Translations under genes and position numbers: made by a program
From: an uncultured Colwellia sp.
Lineage (GTDB): Bacteria > Pseudomonadota > Gammaproteobacteria > Enterobacterales > Alteromonadaceae
Length of the DNA: 50,523 nucleotides
Direction of reading: 5' to 3'
NCBI GenBank assembly: GCA_913058405.1
Contig: CAJXRC010000009.1
Location: 1 to 50,523, forward strand
Part shown: in pieces, positions 4,933-49,886 of the stretch
How positions within the stretch are numbered: position 1 is the stretch's first letter
Layout of the letters: the number at the start of each line of letters is the position of its first letter
The notes under the pieces: generated by a model
The model's input: the letters and a program-made list of their open reading frames with translations, nothing else
Database searches by the model: none
Told to the model about the DNA's origin: nothing

Positions 4933-5739
4933 TTAATAATTATGGTATAAGCCAAACTGTTTATTTATCGTAACATTTTGCTTATCGGCCCAAATGTAAT
5001 AGTCTTGATCTTCTAATTCGCTCGCTGCTTCTTTGTCGAGCAGTACAATGGCATTCTCATGTAGTTGCAAAGATGATGCGGGACAAACTGCAGATAATGG
5101 CCCTGTAACCATATCTTTTACAGCTTTTGCTTTGTTTTTTCCTGTTGCCATGAGTAGTACATATCTAGCATCTAAAATGGTAGCAATACCCATAGTCATA
5201 GCTAATGTTGGTTGGAATTCATCAGCAGCGAATAAACGACTATTATCATCGAGTGTTTGTTGCGTTAATGTCTTAATACGAGTGCGAGAAGCTAAGCTTG
5301 AGGTCGGTTCATTAAAGCCAATATGTCCGTTAGCACCAATGCCTAATATTTGTAGATCGACACCACCAGCTTGGTTAATTCTATCTTCGTAATCTAAGCC
5401 TTGTTCTCTAGGGTTCTCACCTTGATTACAGGTAGGTAAAAAAGTTTTAGATTGGTTGATATCAACATGATTGAACAGGTTTTCATTCATGAAGTGACGA
5501 TAACTTTGTACATTTTTTTCATCTATACCTAAATATTCGTCTAAATTAAAACTTGTGGTGTTACTAAAACTAAGTTCGCCAGCTTTATGTTTATTGACCA
5601 ATTCTTGATAAAGACTAATTGGCGTACTACCAGTCGCTAAACCTAAAACAGGGTTTGATTTTTTATTGATTAGCTCTGCAACCCATTCAGCTGCATTCTC
5701 TGCAACTTCTTGTGCGTTATCAAAAATAATAACTTGCAT
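4933..5739 (-). CDS. nagB: glucosamine-6-phosphate deaminase
   Basis: Converts glucosamine-6-phosphate to fructose-6-phosphate and ammonia, the step joining amino-sugar breakdown to glycolysis; cytoplasmic. At 268 residues it matches the E. coli-type enzyme (266). Visible motifs: phosphate loop GLATGSTP (33-40), NLDEYLG (65-71) with catalytic D67, and GIGANGHIGFNEP (133-145) with catalytic H139. The start has a clear ribosome binding site (AAGGAA). It stands apart from the main nag island, about 9 kb away, but a NagR-type palindrome 95 bases upstream of the start ties it to the same regulon. Confidence 0.97.
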   Translation of the reverse strand: MQVIIFDNAQEVAENAAEWVAELINKKSNPVLGLATGSTPISLYQELVNKHKAGELSFSNTTSFNLDEYLGIDEKNVQSYRHFMNENLFNHVDINQSKTFLPTCNQGENPREQGLDYEDRINQAGGVDLQILGIGANGHIGFNEPTSSLASRTRIKTLTQQTLDDNSRLFAADEFQPTLAMTMGIATILDARYVLLMATGKNKAKAVKDMVTGPLSAVCPASSLQLHENAIVLLDKEAASELEDQDYYIWADKQNVTINKQFGLYHNY

Positions 5740-14544: not shown

Positions 14545-15576
14545 TTAGCGATTGCTAACAATAGCCGTTGAGTCTCTGATAATCAGTTTGGGAACATACT
14601 GGCTAATCGTTGTTTGATTCTTTTGTTTACGAACCTGGCTGATAAGTAAATTTGCAGCATCTTCCGCTATTTGGTTATTCGGCTGATCAGCAGTAGTCAG
14701 TTTTGGCCACGTTTGACGAGAGAATGGACTGTTCTCAAATCCTACTATTGATAGTTGTTCTGGAATAGATATATTCATTAGTCTTGCTGCAAATAATGCA
14801 CCAGCAGCAATTTCATCGTTACACGAAAAAATAGCCGTTGGACGGTGCTTATTATTTTCTGCAGACATCAGCTGCTTTGCACCACTTACACCTGAATCAA
14901 AAGAGTATTCCCCTTCGATAACGAGTTCTTTATTAAAATCGATGTTACTTTCTTTTAATGCTCTTCTGTAACCTTTATAACGCTCAACAGTCGACATATG
15001 TTTTGCGTCTCCTGCAATAAAACCAATATCCTTATGGCCTAAATCGATGAGATGTTGAGTAATAGTTTGTGCAGCATCTCTATCATTTACCATAACGCAA
15101 GGACTAAGATCATCTGGAGCTACGTCACCAGACATGATACGTACAACTTTCACATCAAGGGCTACTAATGACTTAACAAACTCTGGCATTTCGGATAAAG
15201 GAGGTGTCAATATTAGGCCTGCAATACGTGCATGCTTAACCATGTTAACAACCTCTTCGGTAATGTTTTTATTTTTAGCATCACAGGGGTGAATTAATAA
15301 CTCAAAACCTTGCTGTTTGCAGGCAGACAAAATGCCTTCTTGCATATCAATGATATAATAAGCGTTAGGGTTATCGTATATGTAAGCAACAGAAAATGAT
15401 TTTGCACCGGCCAAATTACGTGCGGCTAAATTAGGCTGATAATTTAACTCTTCTACAGCCTTCTGTACTTTTTCACGTGTTAATTGTCTCACTGAAACTT
15501 CATTGTTAATAACACGAGAAACAGTTTTAATTGATACGCCCGCTTGTTTTGCTACGTCGTTTATTGTCGCTTTCAT
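14545..15576 (-). CDS. nagR: LacI-family repressor of GlcNAc utilisation
   Basis: A 343-residue regulator. The N-terminal helix-turn-helix and hinge (INDVAKQAGVSIKTVSRVINN, then NYQPNLAARNLAG at about 46-58) are of standard LacI form; the rest is a periplasmic-binding-protein-like effector domain (SVAYIYDNPN, HKDIGFIAGD, AIFSCNDEIAAGA, LSIVGFENSPFS). Position inside the nag island and the repeated LacI-type palindrome upstream of nag genes and of nagR itself make it the likely regulator of all of them. The inducer in relatives is GlcNAc-6-phosphate or a related amino-sugar phosphate, which is not readable here. Confidence 0.88.
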   Translation of the reverse strand: MKATINDVAKQAGVSIKTVSRVINNEVSVRQLTREKVQKAVEELNYQPNLAARNLAGAKSFSVAYIYDNPNAYYIIDMQEGILSACKQQGFELLIHPCDAKNKNITEEVVNMVKHARIAGLILTPPLSEMPEFVKSLVALDVKVVRIMSGDVAPDDLSPCVMVNDRDAAQTITQHLIDLGHKDIGFIAGDAKHMSTVERYKGYRRALKESNIDFNKELVIEGEYSFDSGVSGAKQLMSAENNKHRPTAIFSCNDEIAAGALFAARLMNISIPEQLSIVGFENSPFSRQTWPKLTTADQPNNQIAEDAANLLISQVRKQKNQTTISQYVPKLIIRDSTAIVSNR

Positions 15577-15726: not shown

Positions 15727-15831
15727 AACATGAAAATATTACAAGTCATAATGGTTAAACAGAGCAAATACTCAAGTTAACTGCAATGATAAAGTCGATA
15801 ATTGTCTCTAAACCATCTTATAGGAATTAGT

Positions 15832-17472
15832 ATGTCGTCTCGTCAAACACTCGCTAGCTGGAAAAAGCTTCAGCTTCTTGCGCAAGACAAAAAATCTCAG
15901 CACATGAATACTTTATTTGCACAAGACAGCGAACGTTTTAATAAGTTCTCTATCGAATTGCCTAACATGCTACTCGATTATTCAAAAAACCTAATTGACA
16001 CAGAAACACTCGATGCATTATTAGCACTAGCAGAAGAGACACAAGTATGTGATTGGCGAGCTAAGATGTTTGCCGGTGAAAAAATCAATAAAACTGAGGA
16101 CCGTGCGGTATTGCACACGGCTTTGCGTCGTCAAAGTGATGAAGCATTCATGATTGAAGGTGAAAACGTCACTGAGCATGTAAAAAACCAATTAGCTGAG
16201 ATGGAAGTCTTTGTAAACAAAGTCCGTCAGGGGCATTGGTTAGGCTACTCAGGTAAACGTATTACCGATATTGTTAATATTGGTGTTGGCGGCTCAAATC
16301 TTGGCCCACAAATGGTAACCGAAGCTTTAAAACATTACAGCGACGGTAGTGTAAATGTTCATTACGTCTCTAATGTTGATGGTGCGCAAATTGCTGAAGT
16401 ATTACGTCCCTTAGAGCCTGAAAAAGTTCTCTTTATTGTTTCAAGTAAAACTTTCACTACCACTGAAACCATGACCAATGCTCGCACAGCAATTAATTGG
16501 TTAACAAGCGCCTCTTTTGATGAAAACTCTGTTGCCAAACATTTTGTTGCGGTAACTGCGAATAAAGAAAATGCCATGAGTTTTGGTATTGAAGAACAAA
16601 ATATCTTTGATATGTGGGACTGGGTCGGCGGTCGATTTTCGTTGTGGTCAGCTATTGGTCTTGCGATTGCCTTGGATCTTGGATTTGATAAATTTGAAGA
16701 GTTACTTGCCGGTGCTCATGATATGGACCAGCACTTTATCAATGCGCCATTAAAAGATAATTTTCCGGCAATCCTAGCATTGATTAGTGTTTGGAATACT
16801 ACTTTTCTAGGTTCTCAGTCTCAAGCTATTCTGCCTTACGATCAAACGCTGCATATGTTAACAGCATATTTGCAACAAGCGGAAATGGAAAGTAATGGTA
16901 AATCAGTCAGCTGGGATGGTGATGAAATTAATTATGCTACTGTGCCCTCTATTTGGGGTGAGTTAGGCATTAATGGTCAGCATGCTTTCTATCAATATTT
17001 ACATCAAAGTAATAATGTTGTGCCTGCTGACTTTATTGGCTCGGTTAAAAGTGTCACTCCGGTAAAAGGGCATCATGAAACGTTAATGGCCAACTTTTTT
17101 GCCCAAACACAAGCATTGATGGCCGGTGTTAATGAAGAGCAAGTTCGTGCTGATCTTAAAGCCAAAGGTCGTGATGCAAATTACATCGATAAAGTCGCTC
17201 CACATAAAGTACATAAAGGTAATAGACCGACAAATACCATTTTATTAAAGTGTATTAACCCGAGAAACTTAGGTAGCTTAATCGCAGCCTATGAGCACAA
17301 GATCTTTGTTCAAGGTATTATTTTACAGATATGCTCTTTCGATCAATGGGGTGTTGAACTGGGTAAAGGCCTTGCTGCAGAGATACAAAGCGAATTACAA
17401 ACAGATAATATTTCCCCTCAGCATGACTGTTCAACATCAAGCTTATTGAAGTTTTATCAGTCAGCAAAGTAG
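15832..17472 (+). CDS. pgi: glucose-6-phosphate isomerase
   Basis: Interconverts glucose-6-phosphate and fructose-6-phosphate in the cytoplasm. At 546 residues it is close to the E. coli enzyme (549) and matches it throughout: GEKINKTEDRAVLH, VNIGVGGSNLGPQM, SKTFTTTETMTN, WDWVGGRFSLWSAIG, GINGQHAFYQ, and YEHKIFVQGIILQI. A TTG at 15802 would add ten residues, but ATG 15832 follows a ribosome binding site (AGGAA) and fits the family N-terminus. Divergent from nagR, with the NagR palindrome upstream, it may be induced with the GlcNAc genes so that fructose-6-phosphate from NagB can be converted to glucose-6-phosphate. Confidence 0.97.
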   Translation: MSSRQTLASWKKLQLLAQDKKSQHMNTLFAQDSERFNKFSIELPNMLLDYSKNLIDTETLDALLALAEETQVCDWRAKMFAGEKINKTEDRAVLHTALRRQSDEAFMIEGENVTEHVKNQLAEMEVFVNKVRQGHWLGYSGKRITDIVNIGVGGSNLGPQMVTEALKHYSDGSVNVHYVSNVDGAQIAEVLRPLEPEKVLFIVSSKTFTTTETMTNARTAINWLTSASFDENSVAKHFVAVTANKENAMSFGIEEQNIFDMWDWVGGRFSLWSAIGLAIALDLGFDKFEELLAGAHDMDQHFINAPLKDNFPAILALISVWNTTFLGSQSQAILPYDQTLHMLTAYLQQAEMESNGKSVSWDGDEINYATVPSIWGELGINGQHAFYQYLHQSNNVVPADFIGSVKSVTPVKGHHETLMANFFAQTQALMAGVNEEQVRADLKAKGRDANYIDKVAPHKVHKGNRPTNTILLKCINPRNLGSLIAAYEHKIFVQGIILQICSFDQWGVELGKGLAAEIQSELQTDNISPQHDCSTSSLLKFYQSAK

Positions 17473-17841: not shown

Positions 17842-17877
17842 TGACAGCGTTGTCATTAAATATTGACAGCGCTGTCG
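17842..17877 (+). promoter_or_regulatory. tandem NagR operators upstream of the TonB receptor
   Basis: Two palindromes, TGACAGCGTTGTCA (17842-17855) and TGACAGCGCTGTCG (17864-17877), start 22 bases apart, about two helical turns, so two repressor dimers would bind the same DNA face. The second one contains TTGACA at 17863-17868, a likely -35. The rest of the 17554-17949 gap is very AT-rich and shows nothing else. Confidence 0.8.
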
Positions 17878-17949
17878 TAAAACCGAATTAATTATTATAA
17901 GTAAATATAAAAACATTCTAAAAAACAAAACGTGTGTAAGGGAAAGTCG

Positions 17950-20577
17950 ATGTCAACTAAAACATTTAAAAAAGGCGTGTTAGCGAGCTCAATAGCAATG
18001 ATCCTAGCTGGTGTAACATCACAAGCTATGGCAGCCGAAGAAGCCGCTTCTGAAATAAACAAAGACGAAGTTGAAGTAATTCAAGTAACCGGTATTCGTG
18101 GCTCATTAAAAGCATCTTTAAATGCTAAGCGGTTTTCAAACGCAGTAATGGATGCGGTATCTTCAGAAGATATTGGTAAGTTCCCTGACGGCGATGTTGG
18201 TGAATCATTAGCACGTATCCCCGGTGTTGCAGTTAACCGTCAATTTGGACAAGGTTCTCAAGTATCAATCCGTGGTGCGTCTGCACAATTAACACGTACT
18301 TTATTAAATGGCCACTCAGTTGCTTCAACTGGTTGGTATGATCAACAAGATATTGACCGAAGCTTTAACTACTCAATGTTACCTTCAGAATTAGTTGGCG
18401 GTATTGAAGTTTACAAATCTTCACAAGCAGATATCGTAGAGGGTGGTGTGGGTGGTACAGTCATTGTAAAAACTCGTAAGCCATTCGATCTTGATGCAAA
18501 TACATTATTCGCAAGTGTAAAAGGCGATTACGGTACAGTTTCAGAAGAAGTTGACCCAGAAGTTTCTGCTTTATATAGCTGGAAAAATGAAAATGAAAGC
18601 TTTGGTGTTCTAGTTGCTGCCTCTGTGTCAGAAAAAGAATATCAACGAAACGGTATCGAGTCCTTAGTTGGTTGGGGTGATATTGTTCCTTCAACTTTCC
18701 AACAAGAGCGTAACCGTACTTCACTTAACCTTGCAGTACAATATGCACCTACTGACGAATTAGAATTCGGTTTAACAGTAACGAGCTTAGAAGTTGAAGC
18801 TAACAATGCAAACACTTCTTTATTTACTATGTTCCCAGATGACAAAGATGCTGCTTGTGAGCAACAGAATGCTAGCGGTACTTGTACATTCTATCGTCGA
18901 ACAGGAACTGGCGCTAACCCAGGTTGGGCGCAGACTTGGGCTCGTGAAACAGGTATGAAGTCAGACACCGTTGATTTCGATTGGCAATATGAAGCTGATA
19001 ACTTTACTGTTTCAGGCCGTGTAGGTAATACTAAATCTGAAGGTGGTACAGACCTTACATCTAACTATGGTTTCTTTATTGGTACTCCAGCTGATTTTGC
19101 CGGTACGTATGATGCAACTGGTGATGTTATTGCTATAGATATTGCAAACAAATCATTTGCTGCTGAAGACTTTAATGCCGATTTATCTTCAGCTGGTTGG
19201 GCGCTTAAAAAGCAACCTAACTCAGATGAAGAAACCTATGTAAACATTGATGTCGAAGTACCTGTAGAACTTGGCGCAATTAGCTCAATTAAAACTGGTT
19301 TCCGTTACGCAGATCATTCTGTTAAACAGCAAACATTTGCTTTAGCTACTGCAAACGGTATAGCACAAAATGCTTCGGCATTTTACTCTGGTACTATGTC
19401 TTCAGGTGCTGGGTTTACCTTACCAAATCCTAACTTAGACGCCATGCTCGCTGATGCTCACGCAACGGTTGAAGCAAATAACGTATCTAATGAAGACTTA
19501 TCTGGCTATGGTACTGTTGATGAAGAAAACTTAGCTATTTATGCAATGGCTGATTTTGATGGTGACGGTTTCCGTGGTAATTTTGGCTTCCGTTACGTAA
19601 CTACTGATGCATCTTCTGATTACTATGCATTAGATGTAACTGGCACATATGCAGATACGCTATCAACTGATGAATTTGATTATAGTGAAGTATTACCTAG
19701 TATTAACGTTGCATTCGACTTAGCTGAAGATGTTATTTTACGTATGTCAGCAGCACAAGTTATGTCTCGTCCTAACTATACAGATATGTTCGCTAGCTCT
19801 GGTACTCCGGGTTTAAATGATGGTACTGCCGGTAACGAACGCATTCAACGTGGTAACGTATCATTAAAAGCATTTAAAGCTTTTCAGTCTGACTTAGGTG
19901 CAGAATGGTACTTCAGCGACGATGGTATGTTCAGTGCTACTTACTTCTTAAAAGAAGTAAACACTTTCGTAACAACTACCCAAAAGCTTAACCAACAAGT
20001 AGGTATCGAAGATAACGACTTAATTGCTGCTGGTGGAAGTGCTTGTGGTGTAGGTGTATACGATTGTTGGACTGTTATTGACAAAGAAAATGCAACTGGC
20101 GGAATCATAAAAGGTGTTGAACTACAGCTTCAAGACGCATTTGATAATGGTTTAGGCTACTCAGTAAACTACACTTACGCTGACGCTAGTGCGCCAGGAA
20201 GTAACTATCCAGATGGAAAAGGTGTATTCTCTGATTCATCTAAGCATACTGTTAACACAGTAGGTTACTACGAGAATGACAATTTCTCAGCACGTTTAGC
20301 TTATAACTGGCGTTCAGAGTATATGATTCGTGAGTCTGGTTTTTATGGTCAACGCGAACATCAATCATACGGCACATTAGATTTTAGCTCTACTTGGTCT
20401 GCGACAGACTACTTAGATGTTACCTTTGAAGCTGCAAACATTCTTGAAGAAGATAGTGTGCAAATTGGTGTTGCAGGGGCTAGTGCAGAAGTTAAGCCTG
20501 AACTTAAACATGGCTATCCAGCATGGAGCTTCGAAGGCGAAGCTCGTTACAAAGTGGGTGTAGCTGTTCGTTTCTAA
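17950..20577 (+). CDS. TonB-dependent outer-membrane receptor for GlcNAc/chitin oligosaccharides
   Basis: An 875-residue receptor. Signal peptide of about 28 residues (cut after AMA), a TonB-box-like stretch (VEVIQVTG), a plug domain (SEDIGKFPDGDVGESLARIPGV, then GASAQLTRTLLNG and IEVYKSSQADIVEGGVGG) and a long beta-barrel ending in an aromatic residue (VGVAVRF). The plug signature is that of the TonB receptors of Xanthomonas, Caulobacter and Alteromonadales tied to carbohydrate uptake. A GTG at 17932 would add six residues; ATG 17950 has the ribosome binding site AAGGGA. Tandem NagR boxes lie upstream and a terminator downstream. The ligand is inferred from the regulon. Confidence 0.9.
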   Translation: MSTKTFKKGVLASSIAMILAGVTSQAMAAEEAASEINKDEVEVIQVTGIRGSLKASLNAKRFSNAVMDAVSSEDIGKFPDGDVGESLARIPGVAVNRQFGQGSQVSIRGASAQLTRTLLNGHSVASTGWYDQQDIDRSFNYSMLPSELVGGIEVYKSSQADIVEGGVGGTVIVKTRKPFDLDANTLFASVKGDYGTVSEEVDPEVSALYSWKNENESFGVLVAASVSEKEYQRNGIESLVGWGDIVPSTFQQERNRTSLNLAVQYAPTDELEFGLTVTSLEVEANNANTSLFTMFPDDKDAACEQQNASGTCTFYRRTGTGANPGWAQTWARETGMKSDTVDFDWQYEADNFTVSGRVGNTKSEGGTDLTSNYGFFIGTPADFAGTYDATGDVIAIDIANKSFAAEDFNADLSSAGWALKKQPNSDEETYVNIDVEVPVELGAISSIKTGFRYADHSVKQQTFALATANGIAQNASAFYSGTMSSGAGFTLPNPNLDAMLADAHATVEANNVSNEDLSGYGTVDEENLAIYAMADFDGDGFRGNFGFRYVTTDASSDYYALDVTGTYADTLSTDEFDYSEVLPSINVAFDLAEDVILRMSAAQVMSRPNYTDMFASSGTPGLNDGTAGNERIQRGNVSLKAFKAFQSDLGAEWYFSDDGMFSATYFLKEVNTFVTTTQKLNQQVGIEDNDLIAAGGSACGVGVYDCWTVIDKENATGGIIKGVELQLQDAFDNGLGYSVNYTYADASAPGSNYPDGKGVFSDSSKHTVNTVGYYENDNFSARLAYNWRSEYMIRESGFYGQREHQSYGTLDFSSTWSATDYLDVTFEAANILEEDSVQIGVAGASAEVKPELKHGYPAWSFEGEARYKVGVAVRF

Positions 20578-20604: not shown

Positions 20605-20632
20605 AAAAACCCAGCTCATGCTGGGTTTTTTT
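20605..20632 (+). terminator. terminator after the TonB receptor gene
   Basis: AAAACCCAGC pairs with GCTGGGTTTT around a TCAT loop, with a T-run. The halogenase-like gene that follows may be reached by readthrough or by its own promoter. Confidence 0.85.
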
Positions 20633-20697: not shown

Positions 20698-22227
20698 ATG
20701 TCTATGAAAAAAATTGTTGTTGTTGGTGGAGGCACGGCTGGTTGGTTAGCTGCTAACCACTTAGGCAAAAAATTTAAAGACAATGCTGAGATAACGGTGA
20801 CTTTAATTGAATCTCCAGATATTGCACCCATTGGTGTTGGCGAAGGCACAGTACCCAAAATCAGACAAACCTTATCAAGTTTTGGAATTTCTGAAACGCA
20901 GTTTATTAGGGAGTGCGATGTAACCTTCAAACAATCGATAAAGTTTGTTAATTGGATGGATAAGCAAAAGCATGGAAGCGATAACTTTTTTCATCACCTA
21001 TTTGATGCACCTGATAAATTTGCTGAAGATTTAACCCCTTATTGGCTCAAGCATGGACAAGGTAATAGGTATGCCGATATGCTTTCACCTCAGCATAGTG
21101 CGTGTGAACTTAATAAAGCGCCAAAATCGATCACGACACCAGAGTATGAAGGTACGCTTGGCTATGCTTATCATTTGAATGCCGCGAAGTTTGCTAATTT
21201 ATTGTGTAACAATGCGGTAGATAAGTTTGCGGTTGAACACTTAAAAGCGCATATCGTTGATGTTGAACTAAACAATGATGGCGCAATAGCTGCTTTGGTA
21301 ACTAAAGAAATTGGTAAGCTTGAGTACGACTTTTACCTTGATTGTACTGGCTTTGAATCATTACTTTTAGGCAAAGCACTTAATGTCCCCTTTATCGAAA
21401 AGTCTAAAGAGCTACTGGTCAATTCTGCGTTAGTGGTACAAGTACCAACGCAAGAAGAAGATGAAATACCGCCTTATACAGTTGCCACAGCACACCAAGC
21501 TGGCTGGATTTGGGATATAGCGTTGACTAATCGTCGAGGTGTCGGTTTTGTCTATTCTAATAATCACATGTCTGATGATGAAGCTAAGACTAAGTTAGAT
21601 CACTATTTAAAAGGCAACCCATCAGAGCTTACCTATCGCAAGCTACCAATGAAAGTTGGGCACAGAGAAAAGTTCTGGCATAAAAACTGTGTGTCTTTAG
21701 GCCTAGCTCAAGGGTTCTTAGAGCCGCTAGAAGCAACCTCAATTTTGTTGACTGATTTTGCCGCAGGCTTTTTAGCCGATCGCTTCCCTGAATCAGAGGA
21801 ACAAATGCTTATGTTAGAGCAGCGTTTTAACCATGTGATGGGTTATGCGTGGGACAGAGTGGTTGATTTCATAAAATTACATTACTGCATTTCAGATCGT
21901 ACCGACTCGACATTTTGGCTAGATAATAAGAAAGAAGAAACGATTCCAGTTATGCTCAGAAAGCGTTTAAAGTTATGGGAGCAGTTCAATCCACAAAAAG
22001 AAGACTTTTTTAGTAAGTTTGAAATATTTGATTATGATAATTACTTATACCTACTTTACGGAATGTGCTATCAAACTAAGTTGGCACCTTTATCAAGTCG
22101 TTATCATGAGAAGGCAAAAGCGAAGGCTGATAGTATACAAGCCATAGCTGCTCAACTTAGCCTTCGACTACCTAATCATAGAGAGTTAATTAACAAAATT
22201 AAGCTGTATGGCCTACAGAACATTTAA
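20698..22227 (+). CDS. tryptophan-halogenase-like flavoprotein (copy A)
   Basis: A 509-residue FAD-dependent protein of the tryptophan 7-halogenase (PrnA) family. The dinucleotide-binding GGGTAGW is at 10-16, GVGEGTVPKI at 46-55, and the lysine equivalent to PrnA K79 is kept (K78 in TFKQSIKFVNW). The diagnostic WxWxIP motif is changed: WIWDIA, with alanine for proline, near residue 265. A later block GLAQGFLEPLEATS is conserved. In many proteobacteria such genes sit beside carbohydrate TonB receptors, as here, and no halogenated product is known for them. ATG 20704 is an alternative start. It is convergent with copy B. Substrate unknown. Confidence 0.88.
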   Translation: MSMKKIVVVGGGTAGWLAANHLGKKFKDNAEITVTLIESPDIAPIGVGEGTVPKIRQTLSSFGISETQFIRECDVTFKQSIKFVNWMDKQKHGSDNFFHHLFDAPDKFAEDLTPYWLKHGQGNRYADMLSPQHSACELNKAPKSITTPEYEGTLGYAYHLNAAKFANLLCNNAVDKFAVEHLKAHIVDVELNNDGAIAALVTKEIGKLEYDFYLDCTGFESLLLGKALNVPFIEKSKELLVNSALVVQVPTQEEDEIPPYTVATAHQAGWIWDIALTNRRGVGFVYSNNHMSDDEAKTKLDHYLKGNPSELTYRKLPMKVGHREKFWHKNCVSLGLAQGFLEPLEATSILLTDFAAGFLADRFPESEEQMLMLEQRFNHVMGYAWDRVVDFIKLHYCISDRTDSTFWLDNKKEETIPVMLRKRLKLWEQFNPQKEDFFSKFEIFDYDNYLYLLYGMCYQTKLAPLSSRYHEKAKAKADSIQAIAAQLSLRLPNHRELINKIKLYGLQNI

Positions 22228-22323
22228 TCTTTGGTCGTAGGGAAGTGGATGCTAATAAAGTAAAATTATATAGCTAAATAATGGGGGTGTTGCCACGATG
22301 TGACATTTAAAAATGTGGCAGTA

Positions 22324-23901
22324 TTAGCGGTGTGCTTCTAATTTATGCCACCGTTCATTGTACACTTTTGCAAGTTGCTCATTATGGTTATAAAACTGCT
22401 GACTTACCTGCTGACAATATTTGATGATTTCAGCTACAGGGGCTACTTTTGTATTGGGACTGGGTTTATTTAATGAGGTTGGAAAGTGGCCCTTACCAGA
22501 AAACAAACAGTACCAACTAGGTGCGAAGTAAGTTAACTCTGCATTATGTCGATGTAATTCTGCTTCGAAATCTCCCCCCGGTGTATGCCAAGCAGAAAGT
22601 AATGCCGTTAAGCGTGTCGAGTTGTTCTTACTCTCTCTATTGTCACACCAGTATTGACTATCAGTGCGTGAGTTTAGGCGATAGTGAGCGACAATATAGT
22701 CTTTTATACTTTCAAACACTTCATTTAACTGATTATTATAAGTGTCTTGTTGCGCTATAACTTCTCTTTTAGCTGCCTGCATATCTTCGTAGCTATTAAT
22801 GAAAGACTCAACAGTGTGCTGGATTAACATTAATGCGGTTGCTTCTAATGGCTCTATAAAGCCTTGTGATAACCCAACAGCAAGTACATTTTTATGCCAA
22901 TGTTGGCTTACGCGACCTAAACGCATTTTAATGACTTTAGCCTTTTGATCTTTACAGCTTGGACCAATATGCTCCCTAAGCTCTTGTTCTGCCGCATCAT
23001 CACTAATGTATTTAGAGGAGTAAACATAACCATTACCATAGCGGTTTCGAAGGGGGATCTGCCAAGCCCAACCAGAGGAGAGCGCGGTTGAGGTTGTATT
23101 CGATGGTATGTCTTTTGAACAATCTATCGGAGACTGAATGGCAACGGCTCGATCATTAAATAAACAGTCACTGTAGTCGATAAAGTCAACGTTAAGCGCT
23201 TGCCTGATAAGTCGTGCCGCAAAACCAGTGCAGTCAATAAACAAGTCAGCGCTGTGTGCACCATTATCCTTAGTTACGATACTAGATATTTGACCGCTGT
23301 CACTTAAGTTAACATCATCAACAGTATCAATTAAGTGACTTAAGCCCATATTTAACAAGCGCTTTTTTAAAAAACTGCCAACCAAAGCAGAGTCAAAATG
23401 GTAACCATAATCCATTTCATTTCTTAATTGCTGGAAAGCTATTGGCGCTTTGAAATCTTTTGCTAAATAAGATTGCAGCCAGTAATCATCAGGATGAGCA
23501 GGCACATCTATTCCCTCGCGCCTTAAACGAGCGTTATGCATAAATGCATTGCCGGTTTTCCAATCTGCTTGGGAATAAAATGGGTGTATATAAGCTGGGT
23601 AGTCGGCATAAGCAGGATCATCAATATTAGTCCAGCCAGGAAAACTAATGCCGCATTTATAAGTAGCATTGCATTCAGGCATCCACTCTTGCTCACTTAT
23701 CCCTAAATGTTTGAAAAATAGACGTAACGAAGGTGTTGAACCTTCTCCTACGCCTATTTTATTTATAACATCTGACTCTATCAGTAATATCTCAGTCCCT
23801 TTTTTAGCCCAAGCTTTATGAATAAGGCTCGCAGCCATCCACCCAGCGCTACCGCCACCAAGTATTATTATTTTTTTAGGTTGTGAGCCAATTACTGACA
23901 T
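22324..23901 (-). CDS. tryptophan-halogenase-like flavoprotein (copy B)
   Basis: A 525-residue member of the same family as copy A, but clearly divergent from it. FAD motif GGGSAGWMA at 15-23, GVGEGSTPSLR at 50-60, conserved lysine K82 in NATYKCGISF, and an intact WxWxIP motif (WAWQIPLRNRYG). The block LAVGLSQGFIEPLEATAL follows. It is the last gene of a minus-strand operon, 12 bases after the SapC gene, headed by the DUF6445 gene and the shared NagR operator. A weak hairpin (TGCCAC/GTGGCA, 22290-22320) lies in the 96 bases between the two copies. Reaction and substrate are not known. Confidence 0.88.
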   Translation of the reverse strand: MSVIGSQPKKIIILGGGSAGWMAASLIHKAWAKKGTEILLIESDVINKIGVGEGSTPSLRLFFKHLGISEQEWMPECNATYKCGISFPGWTNIDDPAYADYPAYIHPFYSQADWKTGNAFMHNARLRREGIDVPAHPDDYWLQSYLAKDFKAPIAFQQLRNEMDYGYHFDSALVGSFLKKRLLNMGLSHLIDTVDDVNLSDSGQISSIVTKDNGAHSADLFIDCTGFAARLIRQALNVDFIDYSDCLFNDRAVAIQSPIDCSKDIPSNTTSTALSSGWAWQIPLRNRYGNGYVYSSKYISDDAAEQELREHIGPSCKDQKAKVIKMRLGRVSQHWHKNVLAVGLSQGFIEPLEATALMLIQHTVESFINSYEDMQAAKREVIAQQDTYNNQLNEVFESIKDYIVAHYRLNSRTDSQYWCDNRESKNNSTRLTALLSAWHTPGGDFEAELHRHNAELTYFAPSWYCLFSGKGHFPTSLNKPSPNTKVAPVAEIIKYCQQVSQQFYNHNEQLAKVYNERWHKLEAHR

Positions 23902-23913
23902 ATTAGATTCTCT

Positions 23914-24621
23914 CTATTTTGCTTCGAATTCGTTCTGTTTGATCGTCAAGCGAGTAATTTGGTGTAATGAGGCTAAGTGTGCGTAAATTAACGGTAATAA
24001 ACCTTGTGATCTGAGTTCTTCAAACTCTTGAATCGGTAGAGCGTTTAATACCTTTTCATCAATAAGATAGATACCGCTAAGTAGCATAGGCTCTGATTCA
24101 TGGGCTAACTTTACGTTTAATTGTTTAGAAGTGAGGAGCTTCTTCTGGGCAAGAATATGGATGATCGCTTGCGTTTGTTCTGTAAATTCAGCAACACTTA
24201 ACAATGCTTGTATTTTTTTGTTTAAAAATTCAGTTTGTAGACCTTGCTCATCAAATAATGCTTCACCGCTATCGGTACTTATAAATGAACTTTTTTCATC
24301 AAAACAAACGGTGACTTCATCACTATTATCACTCGTTTTCACCAAACTAAGTGGTGCGTTATGAAAGCCCACAGGTGCAACTGCGCAATTCCACTCAACA
24401 TCTTGGCAATAAAGGTTAATACCTGATCTAATCCCCATTACGGCGACACTGGTAAATTGCCCTGTTTCTTCATTTTTTACGAAAACAATAGGGAATTCAG
24501 TAGACAGTGGAATGAAGTCTTGTACCGTTATCGGTATCAAATGCTGGTTCTTAAAGCGAGAAACATCATTAGTGTGTTGTATTTTTAGGTTTGCGTGTTG
24601 CTTGTTATTTAAAGGGGTCAT
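23914..24621 (-). CDS. SapC family protein
   Basis: A 235-residue protein matching the SapC family by its layout: an N-terminal LIPITVQDFIPLSTEFPIVFVKNEETGQF block, a central GFHNAPLSLV block, FDEQGLQTEFL, and the C-terminal FEELRSQGLLPLIYAHLASL. The family takes its name from a Campylobacter S-layer-associated gene, but in Alteromonadales, Xanthomonas and Caulobacter it usually lies next to TonB receptors and tryptophan-halogenase-like genes. No signal peptide is visible, so it appears cytoplasmic. It is in the middle of the three-gene minus-strand operon. Function unknown. Confidence 0.8.
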   Translation of the reverse strand: MTPLNNKQHANLKIQHTNDVSRFKNQHLIPITVQDFIPLSTEFPIVFVKNEETGQFTSVAVMGIRSGINLYCQDVEWNCAVAPVGFHNAPLSLVKTSDNSDEVTVCFDEKSSFISTDSGEALFDEQGLQTEFLNKKIQALLSVAEFTEQTQAIIHILAQKKLLTSKQLNVKLAHESEPMLLSGIYLIDEKVLNALPIQEFEELRSQGLLPLIYAHLASLHQITRLTIKQNEFEAK

Positions 24622-24659
24622 GTAAAGTTATACTCCAGAGTTGTCTTTTTCAAATTGTT

Positions 24660-24700
24660 TATACCCGTTACCTTTCAAAATGCTCGATTCACAGCTGAAT
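24660..24700 (+). repeat. solo TATACCC-family repeat end
   Basis: TATACCCGTTACC followed by TCAAAATGCTCG and a degenerate TTTCAG block. It occupies the gap between the DUF6445 and SapC genes inside the minus-strand operon. Confidence 0.6.
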
Positions 24701-24706
24701 AAACCG

Positions 24707-25432
24707 TTATATCGTCGTGATACTAGCAAATGAAGAAATAGATAATCTACCTTGATTAATGTCGCCGCAGTAGCTATTTGGTGAAGCTAAATTTGCGCTA
24801 TGTAAAATATTTGCGGGGTAAATTACTAAGCGGTTAAACTTTGCCTCAATAGTGAGTATTTGTTCAAAAATACTTGTGCTACCAGTAATATAGCTACAAT
24901 GATCTTTTGGATTTTTTGTAACATTAGTAATCATTTCAGGTAATACCTGTTTGTGCTCATTATTGAACTCAATTAAATTCCTCGGTTTGTAACGATAAAA
25001 GCTAGTCCCACCAAGCTCTTGTGAAGATAAGTAATGAACAAAAGCATAATCTCCATTATTGCAAGAGTCGACGTGTGGCATTTTTTGACTCACGGTAAGT
25101 AGTGATGGTTCACAAGTCACTAACGATAATAAACTACTATGAAAACTTGATTGATAGCGTGACTCTGGCCTAATATTTGGCAAAATTAACACTTCAAAAA
25201 AGCGTTTTAATAAATGGGTATAAGGCATTGGCATTTTATCCCGCATGCCTGGAAATAGCGTGTTATCGGCAAACATTGGGTTAAAGTAAGCAATGTTATG
25301 AGCAAAATGAGTAATAGCGTCTGTATTAAATAGAAACTCATCTATGACCAACATATGTAAAGAAGTCCCCGGAATTAAAACTTTTTGCAGGGTATAGTCA
25401 GGATTTACTTTTATGTTTCTCATGTTACACAT
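24707..25432 (-). CDS. DUF6445-type protein, possible 2-oxoglutarate/Fe(II) oxygenase fold
   Basis: A 241-residue protein (from ATG 25432; ATG 25423 or TTG 25447 are alternatives, none with a clear ribosome binding site). It resembles the DUF6445 family, recalled rather than searched. The sequence has the order of ligands expected of a 2-oxoglutarate oxygenase: MPHVDSCNN (HxD), then HYLSSQELGGTSFYRY, then YPANILHSANL (distal His), then NQGRLSISSF (Arg). It has no signal peptide. First gene of the operon DUF6445-SapC-halogenase B, with a NagR palindrome and good promoter just upstream. The activity is inferred. Confidence 0.65.
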   Translation of the reverse strand: MCNMRNIKVNPDYTLQKVLIPGTSLHMLVIDEFLFNTDAITHFAHNIAYFNPMFADNTLFPGMRDKMPMPYTHLLKRFFEVLILPNIRPESRYQSSFHSSLLSLVTCEPSLLTVSQKMPHVDSCNNGDYAFVHYLSSQELGGTSFYRYKPRNLIEFNNEHKQVLPEMITNVTKNPKDHCSYITGSTSIFEQILTIEAKFNRLVIYPANILHSANLASPNSYCGDINQGRLSISSFASITTI

Positions 25433-25495
25433 CGTTGATGAAATCAATACTAGTCATATCAATTTATGTTGAATAAATCGACAGTTCAAAAAATC

Positions 25496-25537
25496 AATAT
25501 ACTTAGATTTGACAGCGCTGTCAAAATTATGGATAGT
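25496..25537. promoter_or_regulatory. shared NagR operator with divergent promoters
   Basis: The palindrome TGACAGCGCTGTCA is at 25510-25523. On the plus strand TTGACA (25509-25514), 17 bases and GATAGT (25532-25537) serve the hexosaminidase. On the minus strand TTGACA (25519-25524), 17 bases and TATATT (25496-25501) serve the DUF6445 operon. One bound repressor would block both. Confidence 0.85.
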
Positions 25538-25602: not shown

Positions 25603-28257
25603 ATGCACATTAGCAAGATGAAGAAAATAAAGTGGGCGTTTACCATTGCCGCTAGTTTATCTTTACTCGGTTGTGAAAAATATCCTGAGCCAGCAGTTGA
25701 TACGGGGGAGAAAATTAACTTACAGGCAATTTATTCTGTTACCCAAAATGATATAGACAAAATAGCCCAGAATTTAGAAGTTAATTATCGTGTAGTTACC
25801 AATATTCCTACGGATAAATGTGACAGTAAAATTGCTGATGGTGCTTGCTTTGAGGTGGAGTTAAGTTTTACGGCGAAACAAGCGATTGCAGCTAAAGATT
25901 GGACTATACATTTCAGCCAAATTTCGCCTATTCAGTCTTTTGAAAGTGAAGATTTTACCGTAAAACATTTAAACGGTGATTTGCATGTTATTAGTTTAAA
26001 GGACAACTATTCTGGTTTTTCTGCAGCAGAAACCAAAAAGATAATGTTCCGTGCTATGTTTTGGTCACTAAGTGAGACAGATGCTTTACCTAACTATATT
26101 GTTAGTGCTCCGGGCTTAGATGCTCGTGTGATTGAAAGTACAGTACCCTATATTGATAAAGACACAGGGCTGGAAATACTACCCTATGTTGAACCTTTTA
26201 CCGATGAAAAAACGCAATTTAAGCGCACAGCCACAGACAAGACCCAATGGTTAACCAGTGAAAAACTCTATCAACGTAATTCTGCACTGGTAGAAGATAA
26301 GTTAGCCGTTATTCAAGCAATTATTCCAACACCTAAGTCGGTTACTCTTGATATCAATGATGGCTTTGCCGATATAAGTAAAGGCATTGCAATCTCTTTA
26401 GGTAATGTGAAACACCATGATGTGGATGCCGCTATCGCACGTTTAGGCACTTTAGGAGTTAACCAGAACTCTGAAGGTTTACCGCTTCATTTAAGTATTG
26501 TAAGTGATAAAGATAAGGTTATCGGCAGTTATAGCTTAACGGTAACCGAAACAAAAATTGCCATTGTGGGTGTTGATGGCAATGGTGTCTTCAATGGCTT
26601 GCAATCATTAGCAAGCTTGGTAATGGTTGGTGAATCACGTATCCCTATGATTGTGGTTGCTGATGAACCGCACTTTGCCTTTCGTGGCATGTTAGTGGAT
26701 GTTGCTCGAAACTTTCATTCGAAAGAATTTATCCTAAAACTGCTTGATCAAATGGCAGCATATAAGTTGAATAAATTGCACTTACATCTTGGTGATGACG
26801 AAGGATGGCGTTTAGAGATCCCGAGTTTGCCCGAATTAACTGATATTGGTGCAAAGCGCTGTTTTGATGTGACAGAAGAAAACTGTTTAATCTCTCAGTT
26901 AGGCGCAGGTGTTGATGAAAATTCATCGGTTAGCGGTTATTACAGTGTTAGCGATTATCATGAAATTTTACAAGCGGCCACTGCTCGCCATATTCAAGTG
27001 ATCCCATCACTTGATATGCCAGGTCACTCTCGTGCATCAATTAAAGCGATGACGGCCCGTTACAAAAAATTCATGGCCTTAGAAGATGAAGCAAAAGCTA
27101 AACAGTTCTTACTCGAAGATTTTGAAGATAAAACGCAGTATTCCTCGGTGCAGTTTTATAGTGATAACACCATTAATGCCTGCTTAGAGTCTTCTTATGA
27201 CTTTGTTATTGAAGTCATGACTCAAGTGAAGAAAATTCATGCTGATGCCGGCCAACCGCTGACTCGCTATCATATAGGCGCAGACGAAACCGCGGGTGCT
27301 TGGCTAGAATCTCCAGCATGTAAAACGTTTGTCGCGAATAATGACCAAGGCGTGACAAAAATGAGTGAGCTTGGCGCTTATTTCATTGAACGTGTGGCCG
27401 GCATTTTATCTGATCTTGATATTGAAACAGCGGGTTGGAGCGATGGCATGGAGCATACTCGTGTTGACAATATGCCAGCTATTGTTCAAGCCAATGCTTG
27501 GGATACACTAGCGTGGGCAGGACACGAAAAGGTTCATCGATTAGCAAACAGAGATTGGCAAGTTGTAATTTCTAGCCCTGATGTTTTATATTTTGATTTC
27601 CCACATGAAGCTGACCCAAAAGAGCATGGCTATTACTGGGCATCGCGTCATACCAATACTGAAAAAGTATTCCAATTTATGCCTGATAACTTACCTGTTC
27701 ATGCTGAATTTTGGTTAGATAGAGAAGACAACGCCTATGTTGCCGATGATACAAAATCAGCCCTAGCACAGGGGAATAAATTCCTAGGTATTCAGGGGCA
27801 ATTATGGAGTGAAAATGTCCGCACGGATGATATGGTTGAGCATAAGATCTTTCCACGTTTATTAGCCCTTGCGGAGCGTGCGTGGCACCTTGCTGATTGG
27901 GCAGTGCCTTATAATTATCAGGGGGCAAAATATTCACAACAAAGTAATACCTTTACTCCGAAGTCAAAGGTTATGCGTGATAACCAATGGGCATTATTTG
28001 CCAATACTTTAGGGCAAAAAGAGTTTACTAAACTTGAGCTTGCACAAATAGATTATCGTTTACCTACGGTAGGTGCCGTTATTCAAGCGGGTAAGTTGCA
28101 CGCCAACATTGCTTTCCCAGGTCTTACTATAGAATATCAAGTGAATGGTGGAAACTGGCTTACTTATCAAGCTCCTGTTGCTGTTTCAGGTGAAGTAAGC
28201 CTGAGAAGTAGAAGCACTAACGGTTTAAGAGCGAGCCGTATTACGAAAATAAAGTAA
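25603..28257 (+). CDS. beta-N-acetylhexosaminidase, GH20 lipoprotein
   Basis: An 884-residue glycoside hydrolase that should release GlcNAc from chitobiose and longer chitin oligosaccharides. An N-terminal lipobox (SLLGC, cysteine near residue 24) marks it as a lipoprotein, so it is membrane-anchored in the envelope. Domains in order: CHB_HEX-like carbohydrate-binding domain (about 35-195), GH20 domain 2 (about 235-360), catalytic barrel (from HFAFRGMLVDVARNFHSK near 360) with the catalytic pair D561-E562 in IGADETAGAW, and a C-terminal beta domain. The start has AAAGG ten bases upstream. Expression is probably NagR-controlled through the box at 25510. Confidence 0.94.
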   Translation: MHISKMKKIKWAFTIAASLSLLGCEKYPEPAVDTGEKINLQAIYSVTQNDIDKIAQNLEVNYRVVTNIPTDKCDSKIADGACFEVELSFTAKQAIAAKDWTIHFSQISPIQSFESEDFTVKHLNGDLHVISLKDNYSGFSAAETKKIMFRAMFWSLSETDALPNYIVSAPGLDARVIESTVPYIDKDTGLEILPYVEPFTDEKTQFKRTATDKTQWLTSEKLYQRNSALVEDKLAVIQAIIPTPKSVTLDINDGFADISKGIAISLGNVKHHDVDAAIARLGTLGVNQNSEGLPLHLSIVSDKDKVIGSYSLTVTETKIAIVGVDGNGVFNGLQSLASLVMVGESRIPMIVVADEPHFAFRGMLVDVARNFHSKEFILKLLDQMAAYKLNKLHLHLGDDEGWRLEIPSLPELTDIGAKRCFDVTEENCLISQLGAGVDENSSVSGYYSVSDYHEILQAATARHIQVIPSLDMPGHSRASIKAMTARYKKFMALEDEAKAKQFLLEDFEDKTQYSSVQFYSDNTINACLESSYDFVIEVMTQVKKIHADAGQPLTRYHIGADETAGAWLESPACKTFVANNDQGVTKMSELGAYFIERVAGILSDLDIETAGWSDGMEHTRVDNMPAIVQANAWDTLAWAGHEKVHRLANRDWQVVISSPDVLYFDFPHEADPKEHGYYWASRHTNTEKVFQFMPDNLPVHAEFWLDREDNAYVADDTKSALAQGNKFLGIQGQLWSENVRTDDMVEHKIFPRLLALAERAWHLADWAVPYNYQGAKYSQQSNTFTPKSKVMRDNQWALFANTLGQKEFTKLELAQIDYRLPTVGAVIQAGKLHANIAFPGLTIEYQVNGGNWLTYQAPVAVSGEVSLRSRSTNGLRASRITKIK

Positions 28258-29433: not shown

Positions 29434-30564
29434 ATGACACAAAAACGCTTTCATGCTAAACAACTTTTTGATGGGCAAGCTTTTCTTGATGATCAAGTGT
29501 TGACTATAGTTGACGGTCAAATTATGGCTATTGATCAAGATATTAGTAATAGTGATATTACTGTTAATGGTTTAGTGGCTCCTGGTTTTATTGATTTGCA
29601 AGTTAACGGTGGTGGTGGTGCATTATTCAATGATTCGCCGTCGGTTGATAACTTAAAAACTATCATGTCGGCTCATGCTAAATTTGGCACCACAGCGATG
29701 ATGCCAACCTTAATTACCGATAAAATTGAAATAATGCAGCAAGCTGCAGAGGCTATTTCTCAAGCAATATCAGAAGGTGTCCCTGGTATCGTTGGTATTC
29801 ATTTTGAAGGTCCGCACTTATCTATTGATAAAAAAGGCACCCATTGTGCCGACTATATTCGACCTATTTCTGATGCTGAATGGCAGGTGCTATCCCGCCA
29901 AGACCTTGGCCAAATCATAGTAACGCTTGCACCGGAAACCGTTAGTTCTGAAGATGTTAGCCGTATGGTTAAGTTAGGCATCAACGTTTGCCTGGGTCAT
30001 ACGAATGCAGATTATAAAACGACTCAACAGGCTATTGATGCAGGCGCGAGTGGTTTTACCCATTTATTTAATGCTATGTCACCATTACAAGGTCGTGAGC
30101 CAGGTGTCGTTGGCGCGGCGCTGTTAAATAACCATACTAGTTGCGGTTTAATTGTTGATGGTTTTCATGTGGATTACGCCAGTTGTAAATTAGCAATTCA
30201 AGCTAAACCTCAAGGCAAAGTATTTTTAGTCACAGATGCAATGCCACCTGTTGGCACCGATCAAACTCAATTCGCTTTATACGACCGTACTGTCTATGTC
30301 GATAACGGTAAGCTTACTTCAACGACGGGAGAACTAGCTGGTTCTTCTTTAGATATGGCAAGTGCAGTGAAAAATACGCACCAAAAATTAGGCATTGAGT
30401 TAGGTGAAGCAATTCGTATGGCTAGTGTATATCCAGCACAATACTTATATCAAAATAAAACCGTTATACGTGGTGAACTCATACCGGGTAAACAAGCAGA
30501 TATGGTGGTATTGAATGATGATTTATCAGTTCAAGAAACCTGGGTTGCAGGTGAAAAAATTTAG
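29434..30564 (+). CDS. nagA: N-acetylglucosamine-6-phosphate deacetylase
   Basis: A 376-residue amidohydrolase that removes acetate from GlcNAc-6-phosphate to give glucosamine-6-phosphate for NagB. The metal and active-site positions are present: glutamate in HFEGPHL (about 129), histidine in CLGHTNADY, histidine in FTHLFNAMSPLQGR, and aspartate in LVTDAMPPVG. Length matches E. coli NagA (382). The upstream gap has a TATAAT at 29390-29395 but no NagR palindrome, so it is probably transcribed mostly from the nagK promoter. Ribosome binding site AGGACA. Confidence 0.96.
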   Translation: MTQKRFHAKQLFDGQAFLDDQVLTIVDGQIMAIDQDISNSDITVNGLVAPGFIDLQVNGGGGALFNDSPSVDNLKTIMSAHAKFGTTAMMPTLITDKIEIMQQAAEAISQAISEGVPGIVGIHFEGPHLSIDKKGTHCADYIRPISDAEWQVLSRQDLGQIIVTLAPETVSSEDVSRMVKLGINVCLGHTNADYKTTQQAIDAGASGFTHLFNAMSPLQGREPGVVGAALLNNHTSCGLIVDGFHVDYASCKLAIQAKPQGKVFLVTDAMPPVGTDQTQFALYDRTVYVDNGKLTSTTGELAGSSLDMASAVKNTHQKLGIELGEAIRMASVYPAQYLYQNKTVIRGELIPGKQADMVVLNDDLSVQETWVAGEKI

Positions 30565-48686: not shown

Positions 48687-49802
48687 TTACTTTAAATAAA
48701 AACCAACATGCTGATGTAGCCTAACCATCATTTCTTCTTGCTCTCCAACGATAGCTAACTTTTGAGCAAAAGTGTGTAACGCTTGCTCTATTTCATTGAC
48801 GAATTTACCGTATCCATGACTGGTTTTGTCTTGTTCACTGGCCACAAAAATTAGTTGTACACTGTCTACCAACTTAGCTGAATTCCACTTACAGGTATAG
48901 CCACAGCTGGTATGTAGAGGGTTGTAGCTAAGCATTAATAATTCGCCTGACGTTACAACATTTTCATCTTCACCAGAACGAACAATAGGCACTAACCCGT
49001 TCGCAACAACCGCGCCATTATGTAAGTTTTGCTTTTTAGCTGCACCGATAAACGCATCAGCGATGAGGTTATAAAGTGGGTTGTAACGTTCTTGCGGGTT
49101 TTCATCAAGCTCTGCTAGTGCACGTACGCGACGATTAATGGGAAAATCAACGACAGCATAAGTCAAGGCTCTAGCCTGTTCAGATAAGGTCTGTTGGTCT
49201 GCCATGTATCTGTCTGCAATAGGTCTAAACTTATGCGCTTGACTCCCTTCAACACCTTTACTTTTTGCAAATAAATCGTAAGTTAAATGTTGATGATCAC
49301 TGACACGAATTTGTTCTGCTGGAATAGCTGTCTCATGGGCAAAGGCTTCTAACGCTTTAGTAACCAACTGATGAAATTTAGCAGACTGGCCACGAATATC
49401 CTCTCCGTTAGCTAAGAATATTAAGGTTATTTTTTTTGCTTTATTTGCTCCATTAAAAAAAGTATTTCGACTGGTATGATACTTAGGGTTATATAAAAAT
49501 AGCACCTGTTGTTTCGTCTGCGCAGTAAATTTTTCTGGACTAAAGCGTACGCGAGCAAATTTATCATTAGCGATGAACTGTGCACTTTCAAGGGCAAACT
49601 TATCATTAACAGCAAAAAACGTATTAGCAAGGTGCTGATATAGCTTCTCAAAAGGTGTTGCACTCGTGTTGTCAATTAGTGGTTGATATTGTGCTATTAA
49701 TTCATCAGTTAATGGGATTTTAGCCATTAAATATTGATTTTCTCTAGCAGATGAAGGGATATAAGCTTTGTGTTGTAAGTTTTTTGTACGTGAAATAGGC
49801 AT
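48687..49802 (-). CDS. DUF3083 family protein
   Basis: A 371-residue soluble protein that I place in DUF3083, a family of Alteromonadales proteins of unknown function; this is by recollection, not by search. No signal peptide or membrane segment. Notable stretches: FLYNPKYHTSRNTFFNG in the first half, DHQHLTYDLFAK near the middle, YAVVDFPINRRVRALAELDENP, and LSYNPLHTSCGYTCKWNS with two cysteines near the end. The start is ATG 49802, which has AAGGGTG as ribosome binding site; a TTG at 49847 lies in a repeat and is rejected. It is transcribed alone. Confidence 0.72.
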   Translation of the reverse strand: MPISRTKNLQHKAYIPSSARENQYLMAKIPLTDELIAQYQPLIDNTSATPFEKLYQHLANTFFAVNDKFALESAQFIANDKFARVRFSPEKFTAQTKQQVLFLYNPKYHTSRNTFFNGANKAKKITLIFLANGEDIRGQSAKFHQLVTKALEAFAHETAIPAEQIRVSDHQHLTYDLFAKSKGVEGSQAHKFRPIADRYMADQQTLSEQARALTYAVVDFPINRRVRALAELDENPQERYNPLYNLIADAFIGAAKKQNLHNGAVVANGLVPIVRSGEDENVVTSGELLMLSYNPLHTSCGYTCKWNSAKLVDSVQLIFVASEQDKTSHGYGKFVNEIEQALHTFAQKLAIVGEQEEMMVRLHQHVGFYLK

Positions 49803-49828
49803 AGTCACACCCTTAAAGTTGAATGAAT

Positions 49829-49886
49829 TGTACCCGTTGCCAATCAATATGCTTATTTCAGAGTGCTTGAGTTATATCAATTTCCA
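49829..49886 (+). repeat. solo TATACCC-family repeat end
   Basis: TGTACCCGTTGCCAATCAA, then ATGCTTATTTCAGAGTGCTT, close to the copy at 50431. It lies in the gap before the DUF3083 gene. The rest of the gap to 50119 has a short G-run at 49930-49935 and nothing else recognised. Confidence 0.65.

Follow-up and report, generated by a model that had tools for sequence, protein, structure and literature searches.

A 50,523-nucleotide stretch of DNA from an uncultured Colwellia sp. (contig CAJXRC010000009.1; hereafter the window) carries genes for two flavin-dependent halogenase (FDH) relatives, FDH1 and FDH2, a SapC protein and a DUF6445 protein between the genes for a TonB-dependent receptor and a GH20 beta-hexosaminidase. 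The first-pass annotation of the window had described this arrangement, and Pfam and NCBIfam scans confirmed it; we found that the gene set is larger and more widespread than the window alone could show. Indeed, an oxidative operon led by a TonB-dependent receptor is conserved in alpha-, beta- and gamma-proteobacteria. As to its role, we tentatively favour a cytoplasmic, cis-encoded system that would act before export to modify oxidatively either the receptor expressed alongside it or a partner protein, with the four window genes as a locally adapted copy of such a maturation operon. The features concerned are the following.

17932..20577, plus strand: TonB-dependent receptor that heads the set (TIGR01782, 625 bits against a cut-off of 310)
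20608..20632, plus strand: terminator-like hairpin and T run in the receptor-FDH1 gap, attenuator candidate (-14.5 kcal/mol)
20698..22227, plus strand: FDH1 (Pfam Trp_halogenase, 441 bits, cut-off 21)
22324..23901, minus strand: FDH2 (Pfam Trp_halogenase, 393 bits, cut-off 21)
23914..24621, minus strand: SapC (PF07277, 209 bits against a cut-off of 28.9)
24707..25447, minus strand: DUF6445 (PF20043, 190 bits against a cut-off of 24; start codon uncertain, at 25423, 25432 or 25447)
25603..28257, plus strand: GH20 beta-hexosaminidase (Pfam)

The annotation had also proposed a three-gene operon. DUF6445, SapC and FDH2 do form one on the minus strand, but FDH1 stands outside it, following the receptor on the plus strand, 3' of the hairpin and convergent with FDH2. 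The intergenic gaps across the set measure 120, 96, 12 and 85 bases. The N-termini of FDH1, FDH2, SapC and DUF6445 did not look like signal peptides when judged by eye, so we take the four proteins to be probably cytoplasmic.

Linkage and order of the receptor-led array

We applied local profiles to the window together with 72 loci, and likewise to 80 named loci, which were the best 80 of at least 587 found by FDHs of one clade, b (FDHb); some of these lie on short contigs. We also surveyed 15 genomes picked for their SapC, DUF6445 or FDH content, receptor adjacency not being a criterion. Genes were counted as linked within 6 kb in the 80 loci, within 8 kb in the 15 genomes, and within 7-7.5 kb in the receptor tree and residue sets described below. 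The common order was receptor, FDHa (clade a), SapC, JMJ (an FIH-like Cupin_8/JmjC oxygenase), FDHb and sometimes DUF6445. Among the 80 loci, 67 had a receptor no more than 6 kb from an FDH, 54 had JMJ, 51 had SapC, 45 had at least two FDHs and nine had DUF6445; in some, such as L189, L195 and L199, the FDH stood alone.

In the 15 genomes, 96 of 104 FDHs lay near a TIGR01782 receptor, against 5.7 expected by a length estimate, as did 34 of 48 SapC and 16 of 21 DUF6445 genes. DUF6445 was near an FDH in 17 out of 21 cases, and 63 of 142 TIGR01782 receptors were near an FDH. The DUF6445 counts omit two matches below 50 bits, in G288 and G354. The sets multiply with the receptors (104 FDHs and 63 FDH-linked receptors in these genomes), which is what dedicated, as opposed to shared, enzymes would be expected to show. 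The recurrence of these families beside carbohydrate-type TonB receptors, which the first-pass annotation had stated, is thus far above a simple chance estimate (96/104 and 67/80). In 197 genomes of the order, DUF6445 matches above 100 bits occurred in 18, all of them among the 46 with SapC (Fisher p 2e-13, uncorrected for kinship); this count omits six further genomes in which DUF6445 matched more weakly. Among the control genomes, the laboratory species Caulobacter vibrioides also has the FDH, SapC and TIGR01782 families.

Spacing within the array was tight, with median gaps (from longest-ORF [open reading frame] starts) of 18 bases for FDH-SapC, 3 for SapC-JMJ, 11.5 for JMJ-FDH and 7 for FDH-DUF6445. 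The median receptor-FDH gap was 124 bases. A survey of gaps of 40-400 bases, with mononucleotide shuffles as the control, revealed a hairpin with a T run in 62 of 85 gaps 3' of a receptor, against 3.6 expected.

The window does not hold the full array from receptor through FDHa, SapC, JMJ and FDHb to DUF6445. Its set is an atypical form, comprising FDHa, FDHc (clade c), SapC and DUF6445 without JMJ or FDHb, split over two strands. The same genome has six FDHs, five SapC matches (two of them partial, at contig ends) and two DUF6445 genes. On contig 27 (L007), a receptor, FDHa, SapC, Cupin_8/JMJ and FDHb lie beside GH16, GH94 and GH3 genes in a locus of beta-glucan type. On contig 2 (L009, 1553-12773), a 1079-aa receptor is accompanied by FDHa, SapC, DUF6445, an extracytoplasmic function (ECF) sigma factor, FecR, a sugar transporter and a glucokinase, and on contig 165 (L008) a receptor tail is followed by an FDH. 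Taken together with the window, these loci tie the set to receptors in loci for different sugars. Flanking genes elsewhere were often sugar genes too: among 92 flanking proteins, chosen by hand from 206 ORFs with short or overlapping ones dropped, we counted LacI 10 times, MFS_1 8, GH16 8, GH3 7, GH1 4 and SSF 4. Sigma and FecR genes adjoin SapC and DUF6445 in L106, L115 and L127 as they do in L009, which suggests that receptor signalling is tied to the enzyme set.

Enzyme families and their relatives

FDH1 and FDH2 both belong to the FDH superfamily, far above the Trp_halogenase cut-off, and both have the GxGxxG motif, the catalytic Lys, the WxWxI motif and the catalytic Glu, elements whose roles in FDHs we presume. 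WxWxI is followed by A in FDH1 and by P in FDH2. Judging from these sequences, the two enzymes may act by halogenation or as monooxygenases. A tree of 61 FDH sequences resolved three groups, a, b and c; FDH2 fell in clade c with five others (support 100/100), and FDH1 joined clade a at 95/78, just below the tree's threshold.

We surveyed residues in 177 FDHs scoring above 400 bits and 430-640 aa long, with the window FDHs among the references for clade labels. The catalytic Lys was kept in all 177 and the Glu in 176. In clade a, WxWxI was followed by G in 54 out of 60. The residue after the catalytic Glu was Ala in 69/69 members of clades a and c and Ser in 106/108 members of clade b. The idea of 'open' FDH sites was probed by length only: the first loop region had medians of 67 (b), 71 (a) and 73 (c) residues between fixed landmarks, with 73 in FDH1 and 78 in FDH2.

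The closest solved relatives of FDH1 were 2PYX, 9LU2 and 9LTB (410, 457 and 394 bits), and the same three were closest to the clade a enzyme of L007 (578, 435 and 486 bits); we know of no native function for any of them. For the clade b enzyme of L007 the best solved relatives were the orphan brominases Xcc4156 (6Y1W; 659 bits) and BrvH (6FRL; 492 bits), of the same superfamily, together with 9LUQ (573 bits). Neither FDH1 nor FDH2 is of this type, and the window, unlike the recurrent array, has no FDHb; a Xanthomonas locus (L203) has the order receptor-SapC-JMJ-FDHb. FDH2 was closest to the tryptophan halogenases (Th-Hal and the 5- and 6-halogenases), with Th-Hal (5LV9) the best solved match at 314 bits, and has the same motifs. 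Tryptophan halogenases act on free tryptophan in antibiotic pathways, whereas FDH2 lies in a sugar-uptake locus.

This kinship of FDH2 raises a different reading, that the set makes a small diffusible product, for example a halogenated or hydroxylated indole, which signals through the receptor or is handled by it. The FecI/FecR-type genes of L009, L106, L115 and L127, a signalling layout, agree with such a product. We nevertheless consider it rather unlikely, since it would be wasteful for a genome to keep many parallel sets, mostly beside receptors of their own, for the sake of one compound. No recurrent biosynthetic family appeared among the matches listed for the 92 flanking proteins (25 of 84 families), and sugar genes were frequent there. 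Xcc4156 and BrvH, moreover, do not halogenate free tryptophan, according to PMC7336383.

Weak NCBIfam matches were obtained to QhpG and LodB for both FDHs and to GoxB for FDH1. These are flavin enzymes that modify tryptophan within a protein and give a precedent for a possible mechanism. The window FDHs are not members of their families, and we rejected an identity as QhpG- or LodB-type protein-tryptophan maturases (30.3 bits against a cut-off of 240 and 24 against 400).

DUF6445 has an HxD...H metal triad and a downstream Arg, and these residues (H125, D127, H216 and R234) were invariant in an alignment of 27 sequences above 120 bits and 180-330 aa long. An AlphaFold2 (AF2) model built from ten sequences reached a predicted local distance difference test (pLDDT) score of 90.5 and gave 44 Foldseek hits at E<=0.001, of which 43 were 2-oxoglutarate (2OG) oxygenases or their relatives (by title or by the known class of the enzyme) and one was a virus capsid protein. 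Because the template modelling (TM) scores were 0.30-0.50, the assignment is to fold class only: the model predicts a double-stranded beta-helix of the Fe(II)/2OG oxygenase class. JMJ keeps HxD...H in 21/21 sequences, and its best solved relatives were FIH, followed by TYW5 and JMJD5, which are mostly protein hydroxylases, TYW5 acting on tRNA. DUF6445 had no sequence match to any solved chain at E<=1, and JMJ is not part of the window set.

The nearest relative of the window receptor (47% identity) lies in L126 (7014-14443) beside GH20, DUF6445 and LacI genes, at a locus with neither FDH nor SapC; DUF6445 may therefore act alone with a chitin-type receptor. DUF6445 relatives at L128 (9620-10321) and L129 (9643-10071) have no receptor or FDH nearby, and the L129 copy (G329) is broken by stops.

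For SapC, an AF2 model built from 40 sequences (pLDDT 94.1) found no Foldseek match among solved structures at E<=0.001, and a profile search returned one chance-level hit (E 0.063). SapC stands beside 49 of the 53 FDHa-linked receptors. It is found in other contexts as well, given 27 loci that have SapC without an FDH or receptor above 100 bits (L045-L049, L051, L052, L054-L069, L071, L074, L076 and L077) and few common neighbours there, the largest neighbour cluster spanning 4 of the 27 loci. SapC was consequently rejected as a stand-alone marker of the array.

Both the near-constant presence of SapC with FDHa-linked receptors and its want of a fold match among solved structures would suit a substrate other than the receptor, be it SapC, a TonB/ExbB component or some small protein that escaped annotation. 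We regard such a substrate as distinctly unlikely. With ORFs of at least 60 codons considered, the genes of the enzyme run stand too close together to admit a precursor gene of ordinary size, and the window gaps leave little room for a precursor of a ribosomally synthesized and post-translationally modified peptide (RiPP) over the same ORF range. In addition, 13 receptors have FDHb as their sole partner, without SapC.

The receptor as a possible substrate

Under the reading that we favour, in which the enzymes modify the receptor or a partner before export, sugar would relieve NagR-like repression, the receptor would be made in quantity and read-through of the terminator would yield a smaller amount of enzyme. 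SapC would present the nascent receptor or partner protein to the FDHs in the cytoplasm. The FDHs, supplied with FADH2 and O2 and working either with halide or as monooxygenases, would act on an aromatic side chain, probably tryptophan, and DUF6445 would hydroxylate a second residue with Fe(II) and 2OG, JMJ doing so as well or instead in many relatives. Once modified, the receptor would have its ligand binding, its folding or the signalling of its plug tuned, so that each receptor would keep its own enzyme set. Linkage in cis, a hairpin that separates the receptor from the enzymes, sets that multiply with receptors and the mix of halogenase relatives with two kinds of oxygenase would fit enzymes present in low amount that act on the product of the preceding gene. 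Relatives of the set occur also in genera with names that point to soil or plants (Massilia, Sphingomonas and Xanthomonas), settings in which bromide is scarce, which puts hydroxylation and chlorination on a par with bromination.

To examine the receptors themselves, we built a tree from 98 linked and 64 unlinked receptors (162 rows). Of 79 unlinked receptors, 60 had been fetched; among the 98 linked ones, 69 had been found by FDHb and were therefore linked by construction. Linkage changed 14 times on this tree, whereas shuffled labels gave a mean of 50.5, and one clade of 70 rows was wholly linked, with none of the 64 unlinked rows within it. Linkage is thus inherited in clades, and physical co-inheritance explains part of the co-occurrence. 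It could even be argued that the genes merely ride with receptor loci, through co-transfer or shared regulation, while doing unrelated oxidative work, and the lack of any receptor residue that follows linkage agrees with this. Three classes share the same order and spacing, however, and supported branches force at least 11 linkage changes, so we give this explanation little credence.

Modification of the receptor or a partner was further weighed by screening phylogenetic pairs for a residue that accompanies the enzymes, running 1351 column-residue tests under each label, once for FDHa linkage and once for any linkage. Raw enrichments were strong but clade-driven. The best ranks for the two labels, respectively, were 184 and 147 for Trp, 258 and 706 for His, and 90 and 126 for Pro. 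The best Trp column for FDHa linkage, W793 of the window receptor ('AYNWR'), was W in 52 of 53 FDHa-linked receptors, 24 of 43 with FDHb without FDHa and 19 of 61 unlinked receptors; among the seven clade mates of the window receptor it was Y or F in four, W in L226, and R or K in two. We rejected W793 as an enzyme-tracking residue and retain it as a lead only. For a single conserved modified residue, the result was negative or underpowered. Three consecutive positions of the window receptor, F667-A669 (F, S and A), were among the eight best trackers of any linkage, which could be chance.

Several observations weigh against the favoured reading. No receptor residue tracked the enzymes beyond phylogeny in the 1351 tests for either label, and of 17 independent pairs W793 changed in the direction expected from FDHa in 2.1 and in the opposite one in none, which is not significant (rank 184/1351). 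The window receptor itself falls in a clade of eight rows, the other seven of which have no FDH or SapC nearby. For eight of the 104 FDHs no TIGR01782 receptor lay within 8 kb, although several of these sit in the middle of a contig (G355 contig 23 and G235 contig 5), and an FDH stood alone in L140 and L141. SapC occurred without an FDH or receptor at the 27 loci given above, three of eight genomes with a strong FDH in a class survey had no SapC, and DUF6445 (above 100 bits) was without an FDH in 7 of 29 loci. The receptor-FDHa gaps of L007 and L009, from the same genome, were below the hairpin threshold (0 and -6.2), and the best solved relatives of FDH2 are tryptophan halogenases.

The first-pass annotation had proposed a flavin adenine dinucleotide (FAD)-plus-possible-2OG modification system whose target, linked to oligosaccharide uptake, might be the receptor, a surface protein or an aromatic substrate. 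The conserved residues and the predicted fold class strengthen the enzymatic half of this proposal, and many relatives add a second, FIH-like oxygenase; the search for a receptor residue that follows the enzymes gave no signal beyond phylogeny, and the three targets are candidates. A bolder form, possible if somewhat doubtful, would be that many carbohydrate TonB receptors have their own halogenase/2OG-oxygenase set that brominates or hydroxylates the receptor before export, and that this dedicated maturation of outer-membrane transporters is the native job of Xcc4156/BrvH-like orphan brominases. To our knowledge, there is no example of a dedicated oxidative maturation of outer-membrane transporters. 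Annotators have seen 'tryptophan halogenase' near TonB receptors.

Through the operon, halogenase relatives of the Xcc4156/BrvH type and of two sister clades become linked with a single receptor class, with SapC and with two 2OG oxygenases. PMC5945002 and PMC7336383 treat the native substrates of BrvH and Xcc4156 as unknown, and the latter describes an open site in Xcc4156 that its authors suggest peptides could fit; the linkage seen in the operon narrows that question to a few experiments by mass spectrometry. Were the receptor to prove the target, many Pseudomonadota would build their sugar-uptake machinery partly by halogenation or hydroxylation, and SapC, which matches no solved fold, would have a new role. 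The main text of neither paper mentions 'TonB', nor does that of an FDH genomics paper (PMC8269204) or a peptide-halogenase review (PMC12615548), and the main texts of two papers on TonB and carbohydrates (PMC1790865 and PMC3400609) do not contain 'halogenase' or 'SapC'. Colwellia halogenase transcripts are reported in PMC11337851 with a guess about virus-receptor redox, and with no SapC or receptor-array setting in the part consulted. No title among the matches listed pointed to a receptor-FDH-SapC array; subscription journals were outside the scope of this search, which is no proof of absence.

Putative control and neighbouring genes

We searched for the palindrome TGACA-N-CG-N-TGTCA, which we take to be the NagR form, allowing up to two mismatches. 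The window has six such sites, against 1.27 expected, and none of 100 shuffles reached six. The control elements and neighbouring genes are as follows.

4933-5739, minus strand: nagB-like gene (Pfam Glucosamine_iso), adjoining the 5834 palindrome
5834, 15699, 17842, 25510 and 28361: exact NagR-like palindromes
14545..15576, minus strand: LacI-family regulator, probable NagR (family level only; no equivalog model at cut-off)
15802-17472, plus strand: glucose-6-phosphate isomerase (ORF lists and Pfam/NCBIfam scans)
17842..17877: two NagR-like palindromes upstream of the receptor, at 17842 (exact) and 17864 (one mismatch)
25510..25523: NagR-like palindrome in the divergent gap between DUF6445 (minus) and GH20 (plus)
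After GH20: NagK (NF046058)
29434-30564: 376-aa ORF between NagK and NagP, presumably NagA from its resemblance
After the 376-aa ORF: NagP (NF046060)

A LacI-family regulator together with matching palindromes at nag promoters points to a probable NagR regulon. The site at 25510, lying in a divergent gap, may serve the DUF6445 operon, GH20 or both. The first-pass annotation had the three-gene operon headed by a palindrome and controlled with N-acetylglucosamine (GlcNAc) catabolism; the palindrome at its head is present but shared with the divergent GH20 gene, and joint control with GlcNAc catabolism is a prediction from the palindromes. NagR regulons are described in PMC5343134. With the NagR (LacI) GlcNAc regulons of gammaproteobacteria the window shares the core nag genes, the receptor and the palindromes; unlike the window locus, the main text of that paper contains no halogenase or SapC.

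Beyond the window, 14 exact palindromes of this form were found in 2.86 Mb, a total that includes the window. Among the loci, an exact palindrome lies within 500 bases upstream of the receptor in L075, L125, L148, L161, L197 and L200, and near the called start in L196. The nagB-like gene has its own exact palindrome, about 9 kb from the LacI regulator. A DUF3083 protein is encoded at 48687-49847 of the window.

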